Shown piece after piece: positions 55,002-64,000 of a DNA stretch of 64,000 nt. The stretch spans positions 336 through 64,335 of the forward strand of contig NZ_LMFB01000011.1 in assembly GCF_001426685.1 (NCBI RefSeq), read 5' to 3'. The stretch is from Rhizobium sp. Root483D2 (GTDB taxonomy: Bacteria > Pseudomonadota > Alphaproteobacteria > Rhizobiales > Rhizobiaceae). The notes beneath the pieces were generated by a model. The model worked only from the letters and a program-made list of their open reading frames with translations, was not told where the DNA came from and ran no database searches. The position numbers were made by a program, and so were the translations under genes. Each line of letters begins with the position of its first letter. The stretch's first letter is position 1.

Positions 55002-56411
55002 TCAAGGCTCCCGGATGGCTGTGTCGAGGCCGCGCAGCAGCGGGTAAAGGAAATAGGAAATCACTGTCCGGCTTCCGACCTTGATCTCTGCTGAAACGGT
55101 CATCCCCGGCAAGAGGCGAACGGGCTCCCCTGGGGCTTGCAGAAGTGTGCTGGCGAGCAGCACGCGTGCCTTGAAGAACGGCACGGCTGGCTCGCCGCCA
55201 CCTGCTGGTTTTTCCGGAGGCGGAAACGCGTCCCGGCTGATGGTTCTGACGGTCCCCGTCACGGTACCGAATTTCTGGAATGGGTAGGCATCAAGCTTGA
55301 CCCGCGCCTCCTTATCGACGGCGACACGGCCAATGTCCTGCGAGGTGATCGAAACCTCTGCCTCAAGCGGAACATCCAGCGGAACAAGTGTCACGATCGG
55401 TTCGGCCTCCCGAACGACCGAGCCGACCGAGCGTTGTGCAAGGTCGAGCACGACGGCATCTTCCGGGGCCGTCAGCGTCACCATGTTGCGGCGCAGCTCC
55501 ATCTTCTTCAATTCTTCGCCCGCCATGTCGCGCTGGTTGCGCAATTCGACCAGCTGCTCCATGGAGGCACGCCGGAAGTCCTCGATGAACGCCTGCCGGT
55601 CAGCTGTCAGCTTGGCCAGCGAATGCCCGGCCTCCGCCGCCTTGCCGTGCAGCGCAGTGATATCGGCATCGACATCAAGCCGCGCGTCGCGCGAACCGAG
55701 GAAGGCGACGAGCGATCCGGTATCGTTCCTGTAGAGCGTCTCGCGCGCTTTTTCGATCAGGATCAGGTTGTCGCGGCGGCTGGTGAGAACCGTCTCCTGG
55801 TTTGTACCCGATTGGATCGCGGCGGCCTGCCCGGCGATTTGCTGATCGAAATTCTGCACCTGGGCGGTGTAGAAAGCGTGGCGCTGCGCAAAAAGCTGGA
55901 CCTGCAGCTGCTCGTCGGGAGACCCTCCCGCCAGTTTCGAATAATCCGTGCCGGCAATCTCGGCGTTGATACGCTTGACCTGGGCATCGAGGGCCGTAAA
56001 TTTGGTGCGCTGCTGATCGACATCAGATTGGCTGAAGGTCGCGTCAAGCGTTGCCAATGTCTGCCCGGCCTTGACGATCTCGCCCGTGGTCACGTCGATC
56101 GTGCGGATGATCGATGTTTCCAGCGGTTGAACGATAATGGTCGGCCGGGTGGTGATCAGCTTGCCAGGTGCAATGACCACCTCGTCGATCTTGGAGAGCG
56201 ATGCCCAGACGATGGCCGTGCCAATCAGCGCGGTGATCCCGTAGAGCGTCATCCGGGCAATTCTGGGCGGAACGCGCTCTTCCAGTTCGACCGCATCGGA
56301 TTGGAATTCGGCAAAGGCCGGCGGCAGCTTCGGCTTGACGATAATTTCCGTGTCCCGCTTTGCGGCGGGAACCGGCAGGTTTTGGTGGAGTTTTTCCGGA
56401 CGCGCGTTCAT
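55002..56411 (-). CDS. HlyD-family type I secretion adaptor
   Basis: 469 residues. Short cytoplasmic N-terminus, one membrane helix (LYGITALIGTAIVWASL), long coiled coil (about 130-330), and the barrel-sandwich parts flanking it (VVIAPGKLITTRPTIIVQPLETSIIRTIDVTTGEIVKAGQTLATLD near residue 75-120, and QDIGRVAVDKEARVKLDAYPFQ). Pairs with the ATPase upstream, which it overlaps by four bases. It links the inner-membrane exporter to a TolC-like pore encoded elsewhere. Last gene of the leftward operon. Confidence 0.92.
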   Translation of the reverse strand: MNARPEKLHQNLPVPAAKRDTEIIVKPKLPPAFAEFQSDAVELEERVPPRIARMTLYGITALIGTAIVWASLSKIDEVVIAPGKLITTRPTIIVQPLETSIIRTIDVTTGEIVKAGQTLATLDATFSQSDVDQQRTKFTALDAQVKRINAEIAGTDYSKLAGGSPDEQLQVQLFAQRHAFYTAQVQNFDQQIAGQAAAIQSGTNQETVLTSRRDNLILIEKARETLYRNDTGSLVAFLGSRDARLDVDADITALHGKAAEAGHSLAKLTADRQAFIEDFRRASMEQLVELRNQRDMAGEELKKMELRRNMVTLTAPEDAVVLDLAQRSVGSVVREAEPIVTLVPLDVPLEAEVSITSQDIGRVAVDKEARVKLDAYPFQKFGTVTGTVRTISRDAFPPPEKPAGGGEPAVPFFKARVLLASTLLQAPGEPVRLLPGMTVSAEIKVGSRTVISYFLYPLLRGLDTAIREP

Positions 56412-58552
56412 GCCGATTGCCTCGTTTGCTGCGTCCAGAGATGACGGTAGGTAATGCAGCGCGAGACGAGCTGATCGTGGCGGCCGATATCGGCGATCTT
56501 GCCGCGATCGACGACGAGGATCGCATCGGCATCGACCAGCGTGGTCAGGCGATGGGACACGATGATCACGGTACGCCCCTCGGCAATCTTGCTCAGGTTC
56601 TGCCGCAGGATGGCTTCGCTGTCGGGATCAAGTGCGCTGGTGGCTTCATCCAGGATCAGCAGTTTCGGATTGGTGATCAGCGCACGGGCAATGGCCAGGC
56701 GCTGCTTCTGGCCGCCGGAAAGGTTCGAGGCATTTTCCTCCAGCATGGATTCAAAACCGCGCGGCAGCCGCTCGATGAACTCTTCGGCGCCGGCAATGCG
56801 GGCGACTTCGATGATCTCCTCGATGCTGGCATCGGGCTTGGCGGCGGCGATATTGTCGCGCACCGAGCCGCGGAACAGAAAATTGTCCTGCAGAACGACG
56901 CCGATGCTGGAGCGCAGATGGACCAGATCGATTTCCCGGCTGTCATAGCCGTCGATCCGGACCAGCCCCTGCTGGTTCTGGTAGAGCCCCTGGATGAGAC
57001 GGGTCACGGTCGTCTTTCCCGATCCGCTCTTGCCGACAATTCCAAAGACAGACCCGGCGGGAACCGTGAAGGACACGTCGTCGAGCGCCGGCGCACCGTC
57101 GGGCCCATAGCGGAACGTGACCTTGTCGAATTCGATGCGGCCCTTCAACTGCGGCCGGATCCCCCGCCCACGGCCGAACTGTTCCGGACGCTGGTTCATG
57201 ATCTCGCCGAGCATGCGCACGGACAGGGCCACTTCCTGATATTCGTGAACCATGGTGACGATCTGCACGAGCGGGCCGGACACGCGGCCTGCCAGCATGT
57301 TGAAGGCGACCAGCGCACCGATAGTCATGGAACCGCTGAATACATCTAGCGCTCCGAGCCCGATGATCGCAACGCTCATCAGTTTTTCCAAAAGCCCGGT
57401 CAATGCCTGGGCAACGGTCGAGATCTTATCGACGCGAAAGCGCACGGAGATGGCTTGCGCGGAACGATCGTCCCAGACCTGGCGCTGACGCGGCTCGAGC
57501 GCCAGTGACTTGACGGTGCGCATGCCATGCACCGTCTCGACCAGCAGCGCCTGACGCTCGCCTTCGGCCTGATAGAGGGCCTGGAGCCGCCGCTGAAACG
57601 GCCCCACCAGAACCATGACCACCAGGCCGACAAGGGCTGCAAAGCCCAGGACGACAAAGGTCAGCTTGACGCTGTAGAGAACCAGGATCGGTATGAAGAC
57701 CAGGAGCGAAACCGCATCCAGAAGGGTAAGGAACAGCCGGCCCGTCAGGAACTCGCGGATACGGCCCGTCTGTTGCATATGCTTGACCAGCACACCGGCC
57801 GAGGCCTGCTCGAACAAGGCGATCGGCAGATTGAGAAGGTGCCCGAACGTGCGCGTGGCGATCCTGATGTCGATCTTGTTGGTCGCGTAAAGCAGCAGGT
57901 AGCGCCTCAGGAAAGTAAAGGCCGCATCGAAAAGGAGCGCAATAGCAATGCCGATGGTGAGAACCGCAAGTGTAGAATAGCTCTGGTGGACAAGGACCTT
58001 GTCGATCACAAGCTGGAAAAAGATCGGCGTTGCGAGCCCCAGCCCGTAGAGGACGAAGGCAGCGAGCGCCACGTCGCGAAGTAAGCTGCGCTGGCGGACA
58101 ATTTCTGGAATGAACCAGCGAAAACCGAATGGCTGATCGGTGTCGGAAAGACGATAGCTGCGTTTGACGAGGATGACCGATCCGCGCCAATGTTTTGCAA
58201 ATTGCTCCTGGTTGAGCAGGATGAATTCCGGACGCTGGGCCAGGGGATCGAGCACCCGGATCATCTCGCCCTCACCGCTGCCTGCCGCACCGGCGATGAC
58301 AACCCAATTGCCGTTTTCAAGCTCGGCGAGCAACGGAAAGGCGTCGCCGAGCTGAAACAGAGACCGCCAGGTCAGCGTCAGGTTTTTGGCCTTCAGCCCC
58401 GCGTCCTTTGCCATGCGCAGGAGTTGCCGCATCGGCACCGCCTGCTCGCCGACCGCATAGTCGTGCAAAAGCCGTTCGGGTGACAGATCAACACCATGGT
58501 GACGGCCGACCAGGGCCAGACACTGGAGGTTTGTGTGCGCGAGTGTACTCAT
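56408..58552 (-). CDS. HlyB-type type I secretion ABC transporter with degenerate C39 domain
   Basis: 714 residues. Residues 1-130 are a C39-like domain; aligned with HlyB the catalytic Cys is replaced (TNLQCLALVGRHHGV, Thr at the site) and the His is missing, so no leader peptide is cleaved. Six membrane helices follow (about 165-440), then the ATPase: Walker A GKSGSGKTT, signature LSGGQKQRLAIARAL, Walker B LLILDEATSALDPDSE. Such CLD-type transporters export unprocessed proteins with a C-terminal signal, here most likely the large exoprotein at 60162. Confidence 0.92.
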   Translation of the reverse strand: MSTLAHTNLQCLALVGRHHGVDLSPERLLHDYAVGEQAVPMRQLLRMAKDAGLKAKNLTLTWRSLFQLGDAFPLLAELENGNWVVIAGAAGSGEGEMIRVLDPLAQRPEFILLNQEQFAKHWRGSVILVKRSYRLSDTDQPFGFRWFIPEIVRQRSLLRDVALAAFVLYGLGLATPIFFQLVIDKVLVHQSYSTLAVLTIGIAIALLFDAAFTFLRRYLLLYATNKIDIRIATRTFGHLLNLPIALFEQASAGVLVKHMQQTGRIREFLTGRLFLTLLDAVSLLVFIPILVLYSVKLTFVVLGFAALVGLVVMVLVGPFQRRLQALYQAEGERQALLVETVHGMRTVKSLALEPRQRQVWDDRSAQAISVRFRVDKISTVAQALTGLLEKLMSVAIIGLGALDVFSGSMTIGALVAFNMLAGRVSGPLVQIVTMVHEYQEVALSVRMLGEIMNQRPEQFGRGRGIRPQLKGRIEFDKVTFRYGPDGAPALDDVSFTVPAGSVFGIVGKSGSGKTTVTRLIQGLYQNQQGLVRIDGYDSREIDLVHLRSSIGVVLQDNFLFRGSVRDNIAAAKPDASIEEIIEVARIAGAEEFIERLPRGFESMLEENASNLSGGQKQRLAIARALITNPKLLILDEATSALDPDSEAILRQNLSKIAEGRTVIIVSHRLTTLVDADAILVVDRGKIADIGRHDQLVSRCITYRHLWTQQTRQSA

Positions 58553-58586
58553 GGCCTCACTTGGAACAAAGGGCTTGCGTGGCCGG

Positions 58587-58895
58587 TCAGTTGAAATTCG
58601 GCGAAGCGTTCACCGAAAGCGGCGGCTGCTGGCCTGAATCTGCAGCCGGCATTTGCGCAATGTCCCCGATGCGGCGCACCGCGCCCGCCTCGACCAGGCC
58701 GTTTAAGGCTTTCTGCATGAGGTCCACCGCATTGGCGAAAGCATCCACCGGCATGATGATCCGCTGGCGAAAGACGGGTCGCGGATTGTTGCTGGCATCG
58801 CGCTCGGTCGGCGAAAGCGACATCATGTCGATCCGCACGATCGTGCCCGTCACGGTGATCTCACCGATTCCATCGGCATAAAGCTCATTGTTCAT
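58587..58895 (-). CDS. Small conserved-looking protein of the secretion operon
   Basis: 102 residues from ATG58895, preceded by GGAGACGATA. A strand-helix pattern (IGEITVTGTIVRIDMMSLSP, PVFRQRIIMPVDAFANAVDLMQKALNGLVEAG) gives a compact domain; the last 20 residues are Gln/Pro-rich. No family recognised. It has no signal peptide, so it is probably a cytoplasmic accessory such as a chaperone for the exported protein, or an ATPase-associated factor. Gaps to its neighbours are only 34 and 31 bases, so it is co-transcribed. Confidence 0.75.
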   Translation of the reverse strand: MNNELYADGIGEITVTGTIVRIDMMSLSPTERDASNNPRPVFRQRIIMPVDAFANAVDLMQKALNGLVEAGAVRRIGDIAQMPAADSGQQPPLSVNASPNFN

Positions 58896-58926
58896 TATCG
58901 TCTCCATTGGTTGATGGTGAGGCCGG

Positions 58927-60159
58927 TCATGCGGCATGCACGTGCTCCCAGGGCGGGAAAGGATCGTTCAGAGCGTCGGCGAGGCGAGGATCAAATCCGG
59001 TTTCGGACCCGATCAGACAGTCGTCGAGCGCGGCGCGGATGGCTTTTTCCACAAAGCCTGCTCCGATAAAGACCAGCTCCTGGCGCCGGTCGCCCCAGAC
59101 TGGGCTCCAATTCCGCTCAAGCAACGCTGCAAATTGCGGATGCCGGGGCCAATGTCCCTTCGGAACGGTGACCCACCACATACCTTTGGATTCGACCCGA
59201 TGCTGCACGCCGGCAATCGACAGAAGCCCGATCCAGTCCGGCCGGGTTGCCAGCCAGAAATGGCCCTTTGCCCGGATGAGACCCGGCCATTGCCTGTTCA
59301 GGAAGTTTTGAAGTTTGGCGGGATCGAAGGGCTGCCGCGCACGGTAAACGAAGCTGGATATGCCATATTCTTCCGTTTCGGGCACATGGTCTCCCCAGCC
59401 GTATAATTCCTTATGCCAGAGTGGATGCCGGGCCGATTTTGCTTCGCTGAACAGGCCGGTATCGAGAATGCCGGATAGCGGAACATGGCCGAAATCCGTT
59501 TCGATCACGCGCGCGCCGGGATTAAGCGCTGCAACGATTCGGCGCAACGCATCGCGCATCTGCGGCGTCACCTCCGATATCTTGTTGATGACGACGACAT
59601 CGGCAAATTCGATCTGCTCAACCAGCAGATCGACCAGGGTGCGATGATCGTCATCCGCCCTTGCCTCGCCACGATCGCTCAACAGGTCGGTGCTGGTATA
59701 GTCAGTCAGCAGATTGACGGCATCGACGACTGAAACCATCGTATCGAGCCGGGCGATATCGCACAGCGCAGCGCCCGTTTCATCCCGGAAAGAAAATGTC
59801 GCCGCGATTGGCAGAGGTTCGGCAATCCCGGTTGCCTCGATCAGCAGATAGTCGAACCGCCCCTCCGCAGCCAGCCTGCGGACTTCGTTCAGCAAATCGT
59901 CGCGCAGGGTGCAGCAAATGCAGCCATTCGTCAGCTCCACCAGCGTTTCGTCGGTACGCGACAATTGCGCGCCGCCATCGCGAACGAGATCCGCATCAAT
60001 GTTGATCTCGCTCATATCGTTGACCAGGACAGCGACGCGAAGACCCTCGCGGTTGCGCAGCACATGGTTCAGGATCGTGGTTTTTCCCGCGCCCAGAAAA
60101 CCCGCAAGCACTGTCACTGGCAATCTTTTGCCGCCTTGCACGCCCGCCCACTCTGTCAT
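58927..60159 (-). CDS. CobW/COG0523-family GTP-dependent metallochaperone
   Basis: 410 residues. P-loop [24 protein letters not shown], metal-binding CxCC motif in [16 protein letters not shown], Switch and base motifs (VINKISEVT; Asn-Lys-xx-Asp type reading NKIS). The C-terminal CobW domain (residues 270-400) includes [11 protein letters not shown]0523 proteins deliver Zn2+, Co2+ or Fe/Ni-type metals to client enzymes. It lies 2 bases after the stop of the exoprotein gene and before the secretion genes, so its client may be the metal-dependent domain of the exoprotein before export, or the gene may only share the promoter. Confidence 0.9.
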
Positions 60160-60161
60160 CG

Positions 60162-63100
60162 CTACGCTGCCAGCTGCGGCCGGAACGCCACATCCACATA
60201 GTAGTTGGAGCTGCTGAAACTGCTGGTCGGAAACAGCCCGCTGGCGCCATAGGCATAGACGCCGTTGCCACCGCTCAAGGCCGATGACAACGCATGCAGG
60301 TTGCCGTGAGTGACTTCCGAATTGAAGAAGTTGTTTGCGGCCGAGTAATTGCCATTGGTGCTGTAGGAGACGACATAAGTCGTGTTCGCCTGGATCTGGA
60401 TCTCCTGCGACAGGGAGACGGCTTGCCAGCCGCTGGCGCTTTCGCCGGTAAAGGTGGCACTCGCAAGCAGCGTTCCGGCCGAGTTCCAGAGATAGCCGGT
60501 ATGAGACCCTGTATTGGCCGCTCCCTTGTAGAAGCGGATTTGGGATATCCATCCCCCCGTATCCGCCTGAAACTTCATCCCGAGATTGACCGGGTTGTTG
60601 TCGTTGACCGAGACGATCGTCGGGACCGTGCTGGCACTGAACAGGCTTTGTGTCGCAGCCGGGTTGGTGAAGGTCATCGACGCCGTTGCCGTTGCGGTGC
60701 CGCCTCGCCCATCCGAGATGGAATATTTGAAGCTGGCCGGTCCGGTATGGCCATTGGCCGCAGTAAACGTCACAGTGTTCGACTGACTGTTGAACGCGAC
60801 CGTACCATTGACCGCATCGCTGACACCCGTGAGCGAAATCGGATCGTTATCGGGATCGCTGTCATTGGCAAGCAGAGCTGACGCCTGAATGGTAAAGGGC
60901 GTATTGGTGCTTGCGGCAAGACCGGGATCGTTGACGGCGACCGGAGACGCATTCTGCTGCGACCGCTCAAAGAGCACATCAACCCAGTAGTTCGCCGCGT
61001 TGTAGCTTCCTGTGGGAAACAGGCTGTTCGTCCCGTAGGCGTAGACGCCATTGCCGCCGCTTGTCGAACTGGACGGGGCAGTCAGCGCGCCATTGGTACG
61101 GCTTGTCGTGAAATAGTTCGACGTCACAGCGTAACGGCCATTGGAATGATAGCTCGCCACATAGGTCGTTCCGGCGGTAATCGCCAGCGGTTGCGAAAAG
61201 CTCACTGTCTGCCAGCCGCTCGCGGTTTCGCTTGTGAACGTGGCTGTGGCCAGCCGGGTGCCCGAACTGCTCCAGATCGAGCCGGTATGCGTGCCGGTAT
61301 CCTGCGCGCCCTTGTAATACCGCAACCCGGTGATCGTGCCCGCAGCAGATGAACTGAACTTCATGCCCAGTTCGACGGAGCTTGCATCGGTCGTGGACGT
61401 GACAGCTGGCGTATCCGAAAGGCTGAACAGACTTGTTGCCGTCGATGGCGGTTTCACCGTCAAACTGACGGTGGCAGACGCCGTCCCCCCGCGGCCATCC
61501 GCGATGGTGTAGCTAAAACTTGCCGCACCGGTGTATCCGGCCGACGGTGTAAACGTTAAGGCATTGGTCTGGCTGTTGAAATTGACTGTTCCGTTGACCG
61601 CGCCGTTTGCGCCGGTAATGCTGAGCGCGTCGCCATCCGGATCCGAATCGTTGGCGAGCACAAGCGAGCCGTTGATCGTCAGCGCCGTGTTTTGCTCAGT
61701 GATATAGCCATTGTCGTTGCTCGCTGTCGGAGCCGTATTCACCGTCGAGGGGGTAAACAGAACATCCACCCAATAGTTGGCACCGCCGAAACTGTTGCCG
61801 GGGAATGTCGTGTTCGTGCCATAGGCATAGACGCCGCCGTTCTGGCCGACGCTCAAGGGCCCTTTGATGTAGGCGGAATTGAAATATCCCGACGACGACG
61901 AATAAAAGCCGTTGGTATGATAGGAGGCGACATAGGAAGTGCCCGCCGTGATCTGGATGGCACTGGAAAAATTGACCGTCTGCCAGCCTGAAATCGATTC
62001 CCCGGTCGATGTGCCGGTCGCAAGCAGCGTCCCATCGGCCTTCCAAAGGCTGACTTTGTGCGCACCGATATTATAGAGCCCCTTGAAGAACCGCACGCCC
62101 TCCACCGCACCGCTGGTACTGGCTTGAAAACGCACACCCAGTTCCACGCCGTCGCGGTCCACTGTCGTCTCAACGGCGGGCTTTGTGGCCTGCGTCCACA
62201 GGGTCGAGGCCGTGGGCAGGGTGACGGTGACCTGTTTGCCGGTCGATGGCGTTTCCAGATTGACGCTGTCATCGACGGCCCGTGACTTGATCGTATAGGT
62301 GCCGCTTGCCTGCACGACCCAATTGTAGCTCCAGTTTTCGCGGCCAGTGGCCTTGAACCAGGAGAGGCCTCCATCGGTGGAGACTTCGATGCCGGCAATG
62401 ATGCCGCCGCCGGAATCCTGCGCCGTGCCGGTCACGGTCACATGCTGCCCCTCGACGAAACTCGCGCCGATGATCGGCGACGTGATCGTCGATGTCGGCT
62501 TGATATGATCGGGCGATTGCGTCGCAAGGATCAGGCTGGCATCGATCGTCGTGGGCTGAATGCCCATATCGGCGAACATGTTGATCATCGCCTGCTGCAC
62601 GTTCTTGTCGGTGGGGGTTACTGCCCCCTCATGGGCGGCATTCAACCCCCAGGACCAGAAGACGGTGCCGGCGCCGAACACGAGGGCTCCGCTTTCTGCG
62701 CGGTACATGGTTAAACTATGCGTCGCTTCGCCCGGCCCAACCGAGGAGCCATAATCGCGCAGATACGTATCCACCGAAATGTTTGAGAGCGACAGATTGA
62801 CCAGGCCGGCCGGCCGGAAGCCGTTCTCGACGTCGGAATCCCATTCGTAGCCAAGAAGGTTTTTGACAAGCTCGAAGGTTTGCCCCGGCAGGATGTTCGC
62901 CACATCCGTATTGCGCCAGAAGCGAAGGTTGGAATAGTCGTAAGGCACGGAGATCGCGTCCTGCCGGTAGCTGTCCACGGTGAACATGGTGCCGGTCAGC
63001 GCATTTTCCGGCTTTTGCCCCGGATCCGCATAGCGGGGATCGCGCCAGGTGCCTGTGCCGATATTGCTCGGATCCGTGCTGGTGCCCCATGTTTCCTTGT

Positions 63101-64000
63101 AGCAGACCATGGTGCGATACGCAGTGCCGTTGCCGTCGATGCTGTTTTCCCAACGGACCTTCCAGTAGCACTCGTTGCCGCTCCAGAAGGCGAGGTTCAC
63201 ACCGGCGTCGCGCGCCGCCTCGACATTGGTCCGCTGTTCCGCCGACCAGTATTCGTCATGGCCGACCGAGAGAAAGGCCTTATGATTGAGCAGCTGGCTT
63301 CCGTTGCGCGTCGCATCGACCCCGGAAATGTAGGAGACGTCGTAGCCGTTCTGTTCGATCCACTGAATGGCGGAATGTTCGGCCCCGAAGATGAAGTCAT
63401 GGGTGCCCCCCTTGCCGCTGGTATTGGTCACGATCGGGCGGTTATAGCTGATCGCCGAAGCGCGGCCGATGGCGGTGATGCCGCAGCTGCAATTGGGTGG
63501 CAGGTAGCCGATCATGTCGTTGGGATCGACCGGAACCTCGCCGAAATAGAGGCTGGCGCCCCCCCATTCATTATAGGCCTGCCAGGTCGTATCCGATGTC
63601 TGAAAGACGATATCGCTGGTCGATCCATCGTCGCGGACGATGAATGGCACCATGCTCTGGCCGGCGGTCCCGTCCTCGCGGACCAGCTTTGCAAAATAGA
63701 CGCCGGAAACGGCATCTGCCGGTACGGCCCAGCTTGCCGAGACCGACCAGTTACCGGCATCAATCAATCCGAGGGACATATCGACAATCGGATGCGGCTG
63801 GATCTGTGCCGTGGTCAACGATTTGTCGATGGTCGCGACCTTGCGGGCCCCATCGCCGCCGTAATAACCCAAGCGGTAGATGTCGAGGCGGTAATGCGTC
63901 GAATCGGTGGCAATCTTGAAATCAACCGTCTGGCCGATATTCGTGCTGATCTGCGTGGCAAAACCCTGGATATTCGCATCCCCGTCGCCATCGATACCCC
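60162..64000 (-). CDS. Large modular exoprotein, N,N-dimethylformamidase-like domain plus cadherin-like and DUF4082 modules (5' end outside)
   Basis: The frame stays open to the right edge, at least 1279 residues. Near the edge it reads [17 protein letters not shown], then a dimethylformamidase large-subunit-like catalytic region ([46 protein letters not shown]; about 430 residues). Next come an Ig-like domain (residues about 470-550), then DUF4082, cadherin-like Big_9 ([14 protein letters not shown]), DUF4082, Big_9, DUF4082. It ends in [13 protein letters not shown]. There is no Sec signal in the visible part and no RTX GGxGxD repeats. Type I secretion genes follow, so it is probably exported unprocessed. 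Dimethylformamidases are iron-dependent amidases; activity here is unknown. Confidence 0.82.
60170..62205 (-). repeat. Three DUF4082 plus two cadherin-like modules (about 780-base period)
   Basis: DUF4082 modules at about 61750-62205, 60960-61440 and 60170-60655 each have the pattern ELGMKFSS...[21 protein letters not shown] and ANYWVDVLF. Between them are cadherin-like repeats at about 61450-61745 and 60660-60955 with NDSDPDxDxxSxTG and [19 protein letters not shown]. The spacing repeats at about 770-790 bases. Such repeats usually extend exoproteins from the cell surface and mediate adhesion. Confidence 0.8.

Follow-up and report, generated by a model that had tools for sequence, protein, structure and literature searches.

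A 64,000-nucleotide stretch of DNA from Rhizobium sp. Root483D2 (contig NZ_LMFB01000011.1, positions 336 to 64,335; hereafter, the window) ends in a conserved unit of five genes encoding a large modular exoprotein with a dimethylformamidase (DMFase)-type domain, a CobW GTPase, a protein of 102 amino acids, and the HlyB- and HlyD-type components of a type I secretion system. On balance, we favor the interpretation that these genes form a dedicated type I unit of the BltDE type, for a cargo without repeats-in-toxin (RTX) sequences, in which the 102-amino-acid protein is a small adaptor and a ZigA-like CobW serves the exoprotein. The genes and their landmarks, in window numbering, are as follows.

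60162-64000, continuing to 64619 beyond the window, minus strand: exoprotein gene (Pfam, open reading frame on the contig)
62640-63887, minus strand: DMFase-type domain, exoprotein residues 245-660 (Pfam and alignment)
63252-63260, minus strand: His454-Asp-Glu456, aligned to His519 (catalytic) and Glu521 (iron ligand) of Paracoccus DMFase
60165-60179, minus strand: exoprotein C-terminus PQLAA (end of the reading frame)
58927-60159, minus strand: ZigA-like CobW/COG0523 GTPase of 410 amino acids with a CxCC motif (Pfam, NCBIfam)
58587-58895, minus strand: gene for the 102-amino-acid protein, the proposed secretion adaptor (reading frame, structure prediction, gene linkage)
58593-58604, minus strand: SPNF tail motif of the 102-amino-acid protein (comparison of homologues)
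56408-58552, minus strand: HlyB-type ATP-binding cassette (ABC) transporter with a degenerate C39-like domain (Pfam, NCBIfam)
55002-56411, minus strand: HlyD-type adaptor (Pfam, NCBIfam)
Locus L009, 9904-9955, just past the end of the window: N-terminal motif MLRIxIKNxDYLSxxGG of the exoprotein (sequence comparison)

All five frames are read in sequence on the minus strand and, as a sequence-only reading of the window had reported, are separated from the exoprotein to HlyD by gaps of 2, 31, 34 and -4 bases. The exoprotein gene overruns the end of the window by 619 bases; read on the contig, it extends from 60162 to 64619 and encodes 1,485 amino acids.

To assess the spread of the unit, a collection of 84,980 species was scanned once with the small protein, which retrieved 139 relatives; the best 80 were kept as named loci and, having been selected via the small gene, are not independent of it. 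The sequence-only reading had proposed to check whether the CobW and 102-residue genes recur together; in 79 of these 80 loci, the small gene is preceded by CobW. HlyB follows the small gene in all 80 and an exoprotein is within reach in 75. The order exo-cobW-small-hlyB-hlyD accounts for 46 loci, and another 28 carry two CobW genes with exoprotein genes: 18 as exo-cobW-exo-cobW-small-hlyB-hlyD, 6 as cobW-exo-cobW-small-hlyB-hlyD with the first exoprotein beyond the available stretch, and 4 with two CobW genes and exoprotein pieces fused by clustering. The remainder comprise three loci without an exoprotein, one with the exoprotein downstream, one on a 3-kb contig, and one (L143) with neither CobW nor exoprotein. 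A count obtained independently of the small gene covered 201 related genomes. DUF4082 scored above its curated cut-off in 23 of them, representing 22 of the 26 genomes with the small gene versus 1 of the 175 without it (Fisher test, 2.7e-24, relatedness ignored), and 17 of the 22 genomes with both had the full five-gene order. Of the 24 other genomes in the genus of the window, 12 carried the small gene together with DUF4082 and 12 carried neither. The full operon also occurred in another alphaproteobacterial family (L209). The five-gene arrangement is thus far beyond chance, and the unit is real and conserved. The locus is also common in rhizobia; 96 of the 111 plasmid records bearing the small gene are from Rhizobium. 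The closest plasmid match of the small gene is 100% identical and lies on plasmid p3 of Pararhizobium qamdonense, where the same five genes are present. The annotated start of the p3 exoprotein (L311:9808-13734; 1,308 amino acids) is internal, and the frame remains open for 188 codons further upstream, N-terminal motif included. By eye, another genome of the order (L069:900-1560) appears to contain a decayed small-hlyB-hlyD segment, with a remnant of the small gene and the start of hlyB fused into the end of hlyD.

The transporter and its large neighbors correspond to a system already in print, so the impression of the sequence-only reading, which had not seen such a unit described, is not supported. 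Genes pRL90164-165 of Rhizobium leguminosarum bv. viciae 3841 were named bltDE, and the upstream pRL90159 and pRL90161 were described as encoding non-RTX proteins of 179 and 184 kDa with repeated motifs of approximately 140 residues (Krehenbrink and Downie, 2008; PMC2275737). We found on plasmid pRL9 of this strain (R. johnstonii (leguminosarum) 3841) the arrangement exo-cobW-exo-cobW-small-hlyB-hlyD, the same order as in the window except for two exoprotein-CobW pairs instead of one. Its HlyB, HlyD, small protein and second exoprotein are 86, 71, 78 and 63% identical, respectively, to those of the window, and the two exoproteins have computed masses of 178.6 and 183.9 kDa. We took these genes as BltD, BltE and their neighbors by position, order and mass, and infer the tag-by-tag match. 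In each unit, the genes for the closely similar ABC transporter and adaptor have upstream of them one or two genes for large DUF4082 proteins that lack RTX repeats. Judged from these sequences, the BltDE type I system is present in the window in its Pararhizobium version, and the unit itself is not new. The new part is the two accessory genes and the rules of their linkage. Neither CobW nor the tags pRL90160, pRL90162 and pRL90163 occurred in the portion of the BltDE paper's text available to us, and the CobW gene treated in the accessible part of another report (PMC11406972) is a different one. We found no printed description of the CobW or small-gene helpers in a partial coverage of the literature, in which papers not examined could mention either. 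The R. johnstonii unit (L310:1745-10725) abuts genes annotated for surface polysaccharide, aminotransferase and acyltransferase functions; speculatively, an N-acyl sugar is a conceivable substrate of the DMFase-type domain.

The evidence that carries the proposed role of the small protein is a four-residue tail that follows the transporter. The protein had no Pfam or NCBIfam match at E ≤ 1, and distant homologues were present across the Alphaproteobacteria in 27 of 385 genomes, and in 17 of 297 genomes of the order. An AlphaFold2 model built from 48 aligned sequences predicted strands at residues 9-16, 19-32 and 38-49 and a helix at residues 50-69. Its confidence (predicted local distance difference test, pLDDT) was 76.7 overall and mostly 87-96 in the core, and fell under 50 from residue 85 onward, so the tail is probably disordered. 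We examined the tail in the 62 homologues with enough flank (eleven hits, eight from the scan of 385 genomes and three from that of the order, were excluded for short flanks, no locus or decay). An SPNF or SSNF tail was present in 39, and HlyB lay no more than 2.5 kb downstream in all 39. Among the 23 untailed homologues, 22 lacked HlyB; the single exception precedes a tailed sibling at the same type I system (Fisher test, 6.7e-16, relatedness ignored). Three untailed sequences (G441a, G484 and the G519 sibling) have a stop inside the match, and their ends are perhaps not original; when they are dropped, HlyB stands beside 39 of 39 tailed versus 0 of 20 untailed homologues. Contrasts within a genus and within a genome agree with this: the five second-locus copies that follow exoproteins have neither tail nor transporter, and in G441 the one tailed copy is beside HlyB and the two untailed copies are without it. 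DUF3467 (PF11950) as a parent family is a hint only, with 1 of 24 members matching at E 0.15 and an alignment of the two families with hhalign giving P 0.038 and a probability of 1.4% over 29 columns.

The ABC transporter, with its C39-like domain, and the periplasmic adaptor are shared with HlyB/HlyD RTX systems, from which the window unit differs in encoding the small tail-bearing protein between CobW and the transporter and in the absence of RTX nonapeptides from its exoprotein. The GGxGxDxUx motif was not found in the window exoprotein and occurred in only 2 of the 76 complete exoprotein reading frames at the 81 loci formed by the named loci and the window. The HlyB match to the C39 profile begins at position 15, beyond the catalytic cysteine of the C39 motif. 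One cysteine was invariant in 107 of 107 HlyB proteins picked by motif, and by the C39 motif it is the second, noncatalytic one. The catalytic Cys and His pair of a C39 peptidase was not found in the N-terminal domain. The domain thus appears degenerate and presumably does not cleave, in line with the suggestion of the sequence-only reading that a dedicated type I system exports its substrate without removing a leader. A cleaved double-glycine leader is not claimed, given the C39-like domain without its catalytic part and the existence of other exoprotein N-termini.

The CobW protein has the P-loop GTPase domain, CxCC motif and CobW_C domain of the COG0523 family. Its nearest match is the zinc chaperone ZigA (NF038288), with which it shares the CxCC and GTPase motifs. 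The match is full-length and, at 566.7 bits, under the 600-bit equivalog cut-off, as are those of two exoprotein-linked CobW proteins of the other lineage (561.8 and 568.9 bits). Its nearest paralogue in the window genome, 64% identical, passes the cut-off with 600.6 bits and adjoins a Zur-like repressor gene and znuA. By descent, CobW is of the zinc type, a result that departs from the sequence-only reading of an iron enzyme loaded by CobW. Among the 201 related genomes, CobW hits were present in 87. Proteins at least 73% identical were found in 19, every time at the operon beside the small gene; 66 hold only relatives of 59-70% identity, and the other two are G039, with a 67% CobW in the operon, and G154. 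The gene linkage further suggests that CobW serves the exoprotein and not the transporter. In genomes G154, G784 and G805, small-hlyB-hlyD has no adjoining CobW and the exoprotein lies approximately 16, 49 and 32 kb away, respectively; the gene next upstream of the distant exoprotein (0.4-0.8 kb) is a CobW of 70-72% identity. By eye, polysaccharide or sugar-nucleotide genes lie alongside small-hlyB-hlyD in G154 and G784, one nucleotidyl transferase being confirmed. In a tree of 46 CobW proteins, those of G154, G784 and G805 grouped with the ones encoded first in eight tandem Rhizobium loci (98/93). On the exoprotein side, for which the comparison covered R. johnstonii only, the domain of the first exoprotein is 85% identical to that of G154 and 60% to that of its own neighbor. 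Hence, the tandem arrangement appears to juxtapose two old exoprotein-CobW lineages rather than to result from a recent copy.

Pfam analysis of the exoprotein identified DMFA2_C (3.6e-102), Big_7, three DUF4082 and two Cadherin_5 domains. DMFA2_C domains are also common outside the unit (70 of 201 genomes). The PF20254 domain is shared with DMFase (6LVB) and with N-acetyl-(R)-beta-phenylalanine acylase (8HUY); unlike in these enzymes, it belongs to a protein that also contains cadherin/DUF4082 repeats and whose gene is linked to those of a type I system. The iron of Paracoccus DMFase is described as bound by Tyr399, Tyr440 and Glu521, with His519 and Asn547 also in the site (PMC7686228). We aligned the exoprotein, profile to profile, with seven relatives of 718-760 residues whose own profile matches 6LVB at 9.2e-207. 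In this alignment, Tyr349, His454, Glu456 and Asn482 are retained, and Cys377, one of only four cysteines (377, 379, 484 and 506), falls at the second iron ligand, Tyr440. The two-tyrosine, one-glutamate iron site of DMFase is therefore incomplete as aligned, another departure from the iron enzyme of the sequence-only reading. A Cys-x-Cys loop occupies the Cys377 site in 79 of 89 domain sequences (the window protein being counted twice, from the window and from L009, and one sequence being cut at a contig end). The giant, Bradyrhizobium-like and other second-lineage forms lack this loop. No small subunit like that of DMFase was recognized for the exoprotein, and the genome was not searched for one. 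We rejected a candidate case of a metal motif lost in a CobW-less exoprotein (L284): the residue ahead of the motif is Asp there instead of Thr, which had hidden it from the search pattern.

A motif like MLRIxIKNxDYLSxxGG opens 67 of 75 exoproteins and is followed by a variable linker rich in Ala, Ser and Thr. At the other end, LAA closes 72 and LVA closes 4 of the 76 complete reading frames. This C-terminus resembles the end of the host transfer-messenger RNA (tmRNA) tag, ANDNYAEARLAA (L312:1495-1850), and could be a ClpXP degron in a protein destined for secretion. Ahead of the exoprotein gene, a block lying 70-124 bases from its start (L009:10025-10079), ATCACATCGG.GGATA ... CGATTGGTG.GGTTCGC, looks by eye to recur in five related strains and is a possible regulatory site. 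An Rfam scan of the 19-kb region gave zero matches. Partial ABC transporter ATPase pieces, one confirmed by Pfam, lie directly upstream of the operon (L009:10286-11500), and the equivalent place on P. qamdonense p3 has annotated short ABC ATPase genes with two integrases further out.

Type I systems thread unfolded chains. We propose that HlyB and HlyD, together with a TolC presumed to be encoded elsewhere, would export the modular exoprotein by means of a probable C-terminal signal that ends in PQLAA. At or beyond the cell surface, the exoprotein would act as an amidohydrolase-like enzyme mounted on cadherin/DUF4082 spacers. For the 102-amino-acid protein, the most likely role is that of a cytosolic adaptor for secretion; its folded core of strands and helix may hold the exoprotein while its loose, SPNF-ended tail may dock on HlyB, as the linkage of tail and transporter suggests. 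CobW would most likely hand the exoprotein a metal or ration one, probably zinc. If the domain needs metal to fold, the type I mechanism makes final metallation more likely after export than before it; we saw no sign of the metal-loaded enzyme that the sequence-only reading had placed on the export pathway. More tentatively, the unit could exemplify an alphaproteobacterial class of type I systems that, instead of reading RTX repeats directly, rely on the small adaptor, whose SPNF end docks on the transporter and whose core binds the cargo, with the rhizobial cargo accompanied by its own ZigA-related GTPase; the adaptor could also shield the tmRNA-like end, leaving the protein to be exported or destroyed.

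The genes admit other explanations. The small protein could be a subunit of the DMFase-type enzyme rather than a secretion factor, as the large subunit of Paracoccus DMFase is described as inactive in the absence of a small subunit of 15 kDa (PMC7686228), and in most loci the exoprotein gene has the small gene nearby. Yet the subunit is reported to have four helices and two strands (PMC7686228), unlike the three strands and long helix predicted here, and a profile of the small protein searched against a set of PDB entries found no DMFase chain at E ≤ 10. Furthermore, five genomes (G077, G079, G167, G441 and G519) have the small family beside HlyB with no exoprotein relative in the available 5-20 kb. 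We consider the subunit explanation highly unlikely, and propose docking instead, because of the tail-HlyB linkage, including its contrasts within a genus and within a genome. Likewise highly unlikely is a system for bacteriocin export, which Krehenbrink and Downie (2008; PMC2275737) suggested for BltDE from the likeness of the transporter to bacteriocin exporters and which a 2024 review repeated (PMC10925705). The C39-like domain lacks its catalytic part, the cargo is a 1,485-amino-acid modular protein with a hydrolase-type domain, and no immunity-type gene was recognized among the five genes, although none was specifically searched for.

Two further alternatives concern the metal. CobW could be a passenger of zinc starvation that keeps zinc available to the cell during synthesis of a metal-rich exoprotein, without contacting it. 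The ZigA-passing paralogue beside the Zur-like repressor gene and znuA is consistent with this possibility, to which we give a minor share of the probability. Against it, Zur-like patterns were not enriched over shuffles upstream of the exoprotein in 59 loci, and CobW recurs beside exoprotein genes even far from the transporter. Insertion of the metal into the DMFase-type domain in the cytosol by CobW, followed by export of the loaded enzyme, would also account for the linkage of the CobW and exoprotein genes, but it seems improbable: type I export passes unfolded chains, one iron ligand is aligned to a cysteine, and the exoproteins of G112 and G880, genomes with no close CobW, retain the other motifs.

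Several observations weigh against the interpretation that we favor. A bltD mutant of strain 3841 was reported, as data not shown, to have unchanged supernatant proteins, the protein profiles displayed for 3841 having come from Y-mannitol (Krehenbrink and Downie, 2008; PMC2275737); because of this result, export of the exoprotein is unproven. Foldseek comparison of the small-protein model to the PDB returned 573 matches at E ≤ 10 and none at E ≤ 0.001, and the model of the DMFase-type domain (pLDDT 39) is unusable for metal geometry. The sequence-only reading would have been undermined by helpers missing beside other homologues. This is not so for most exoproteins linked to a type I system, but both helpers are missing from the available stretch around five giant DMFase/DUF4082 paralogues (L285-L289) and around two exoprotein pieces on 3.7- and 4.0-kb contigs (L294 and L295). 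The enzyme domain of one CobW-less giant (L288) is 90% identical to that of the CobW-paired first exoprotein of R. johnstonii. Similarly, G112 has the exoprotein, small gene and type I system without a close CobW, and G880 has exo-small-hlyB-hlyD with a best CobW of only 46% identity over part of the length. Genomes G008, G016 and G021 keep cobW-small-hlyB-hlyD and have the exoprotein with a second small gene elsewhere, and five second-locus small genes behind exoproteins have neither tail nor transporter. The zinc-locus ZigA copies branch beside the second exoprotein-linked lineage (94/84), within the spread of linked CobW proteins, so the latter are not one separate clade. Lastly, some exoprotein paralogues end in LAG, LVS, LSA, IAA or SAV, which also speaks against the export-or-destroy step.

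Related loci show further variation. At the second loci (L061, L062, L063, L064 and L065), the exoproteins are followed by the tail-less copy of the small gene, and the L061 paralogue carries DUF4347 and RTX repeats on its N-terminal side. In G121 (L290), a related protein with RTX repeats is encoded beside another type I transporter, without either helper.

In our judgment, the way in which type I transporters recognize a cargo that lacks RTX repeats is poorly understood. As a candidate docking signal, a tail of four residues that stays with the transporter at distant loci is compact and open to experiment. Further, with a metal-chaperone GTPase recurring next to a secreted protein, one must ask how a protein that is exported unfolded acquires its complete metal site.

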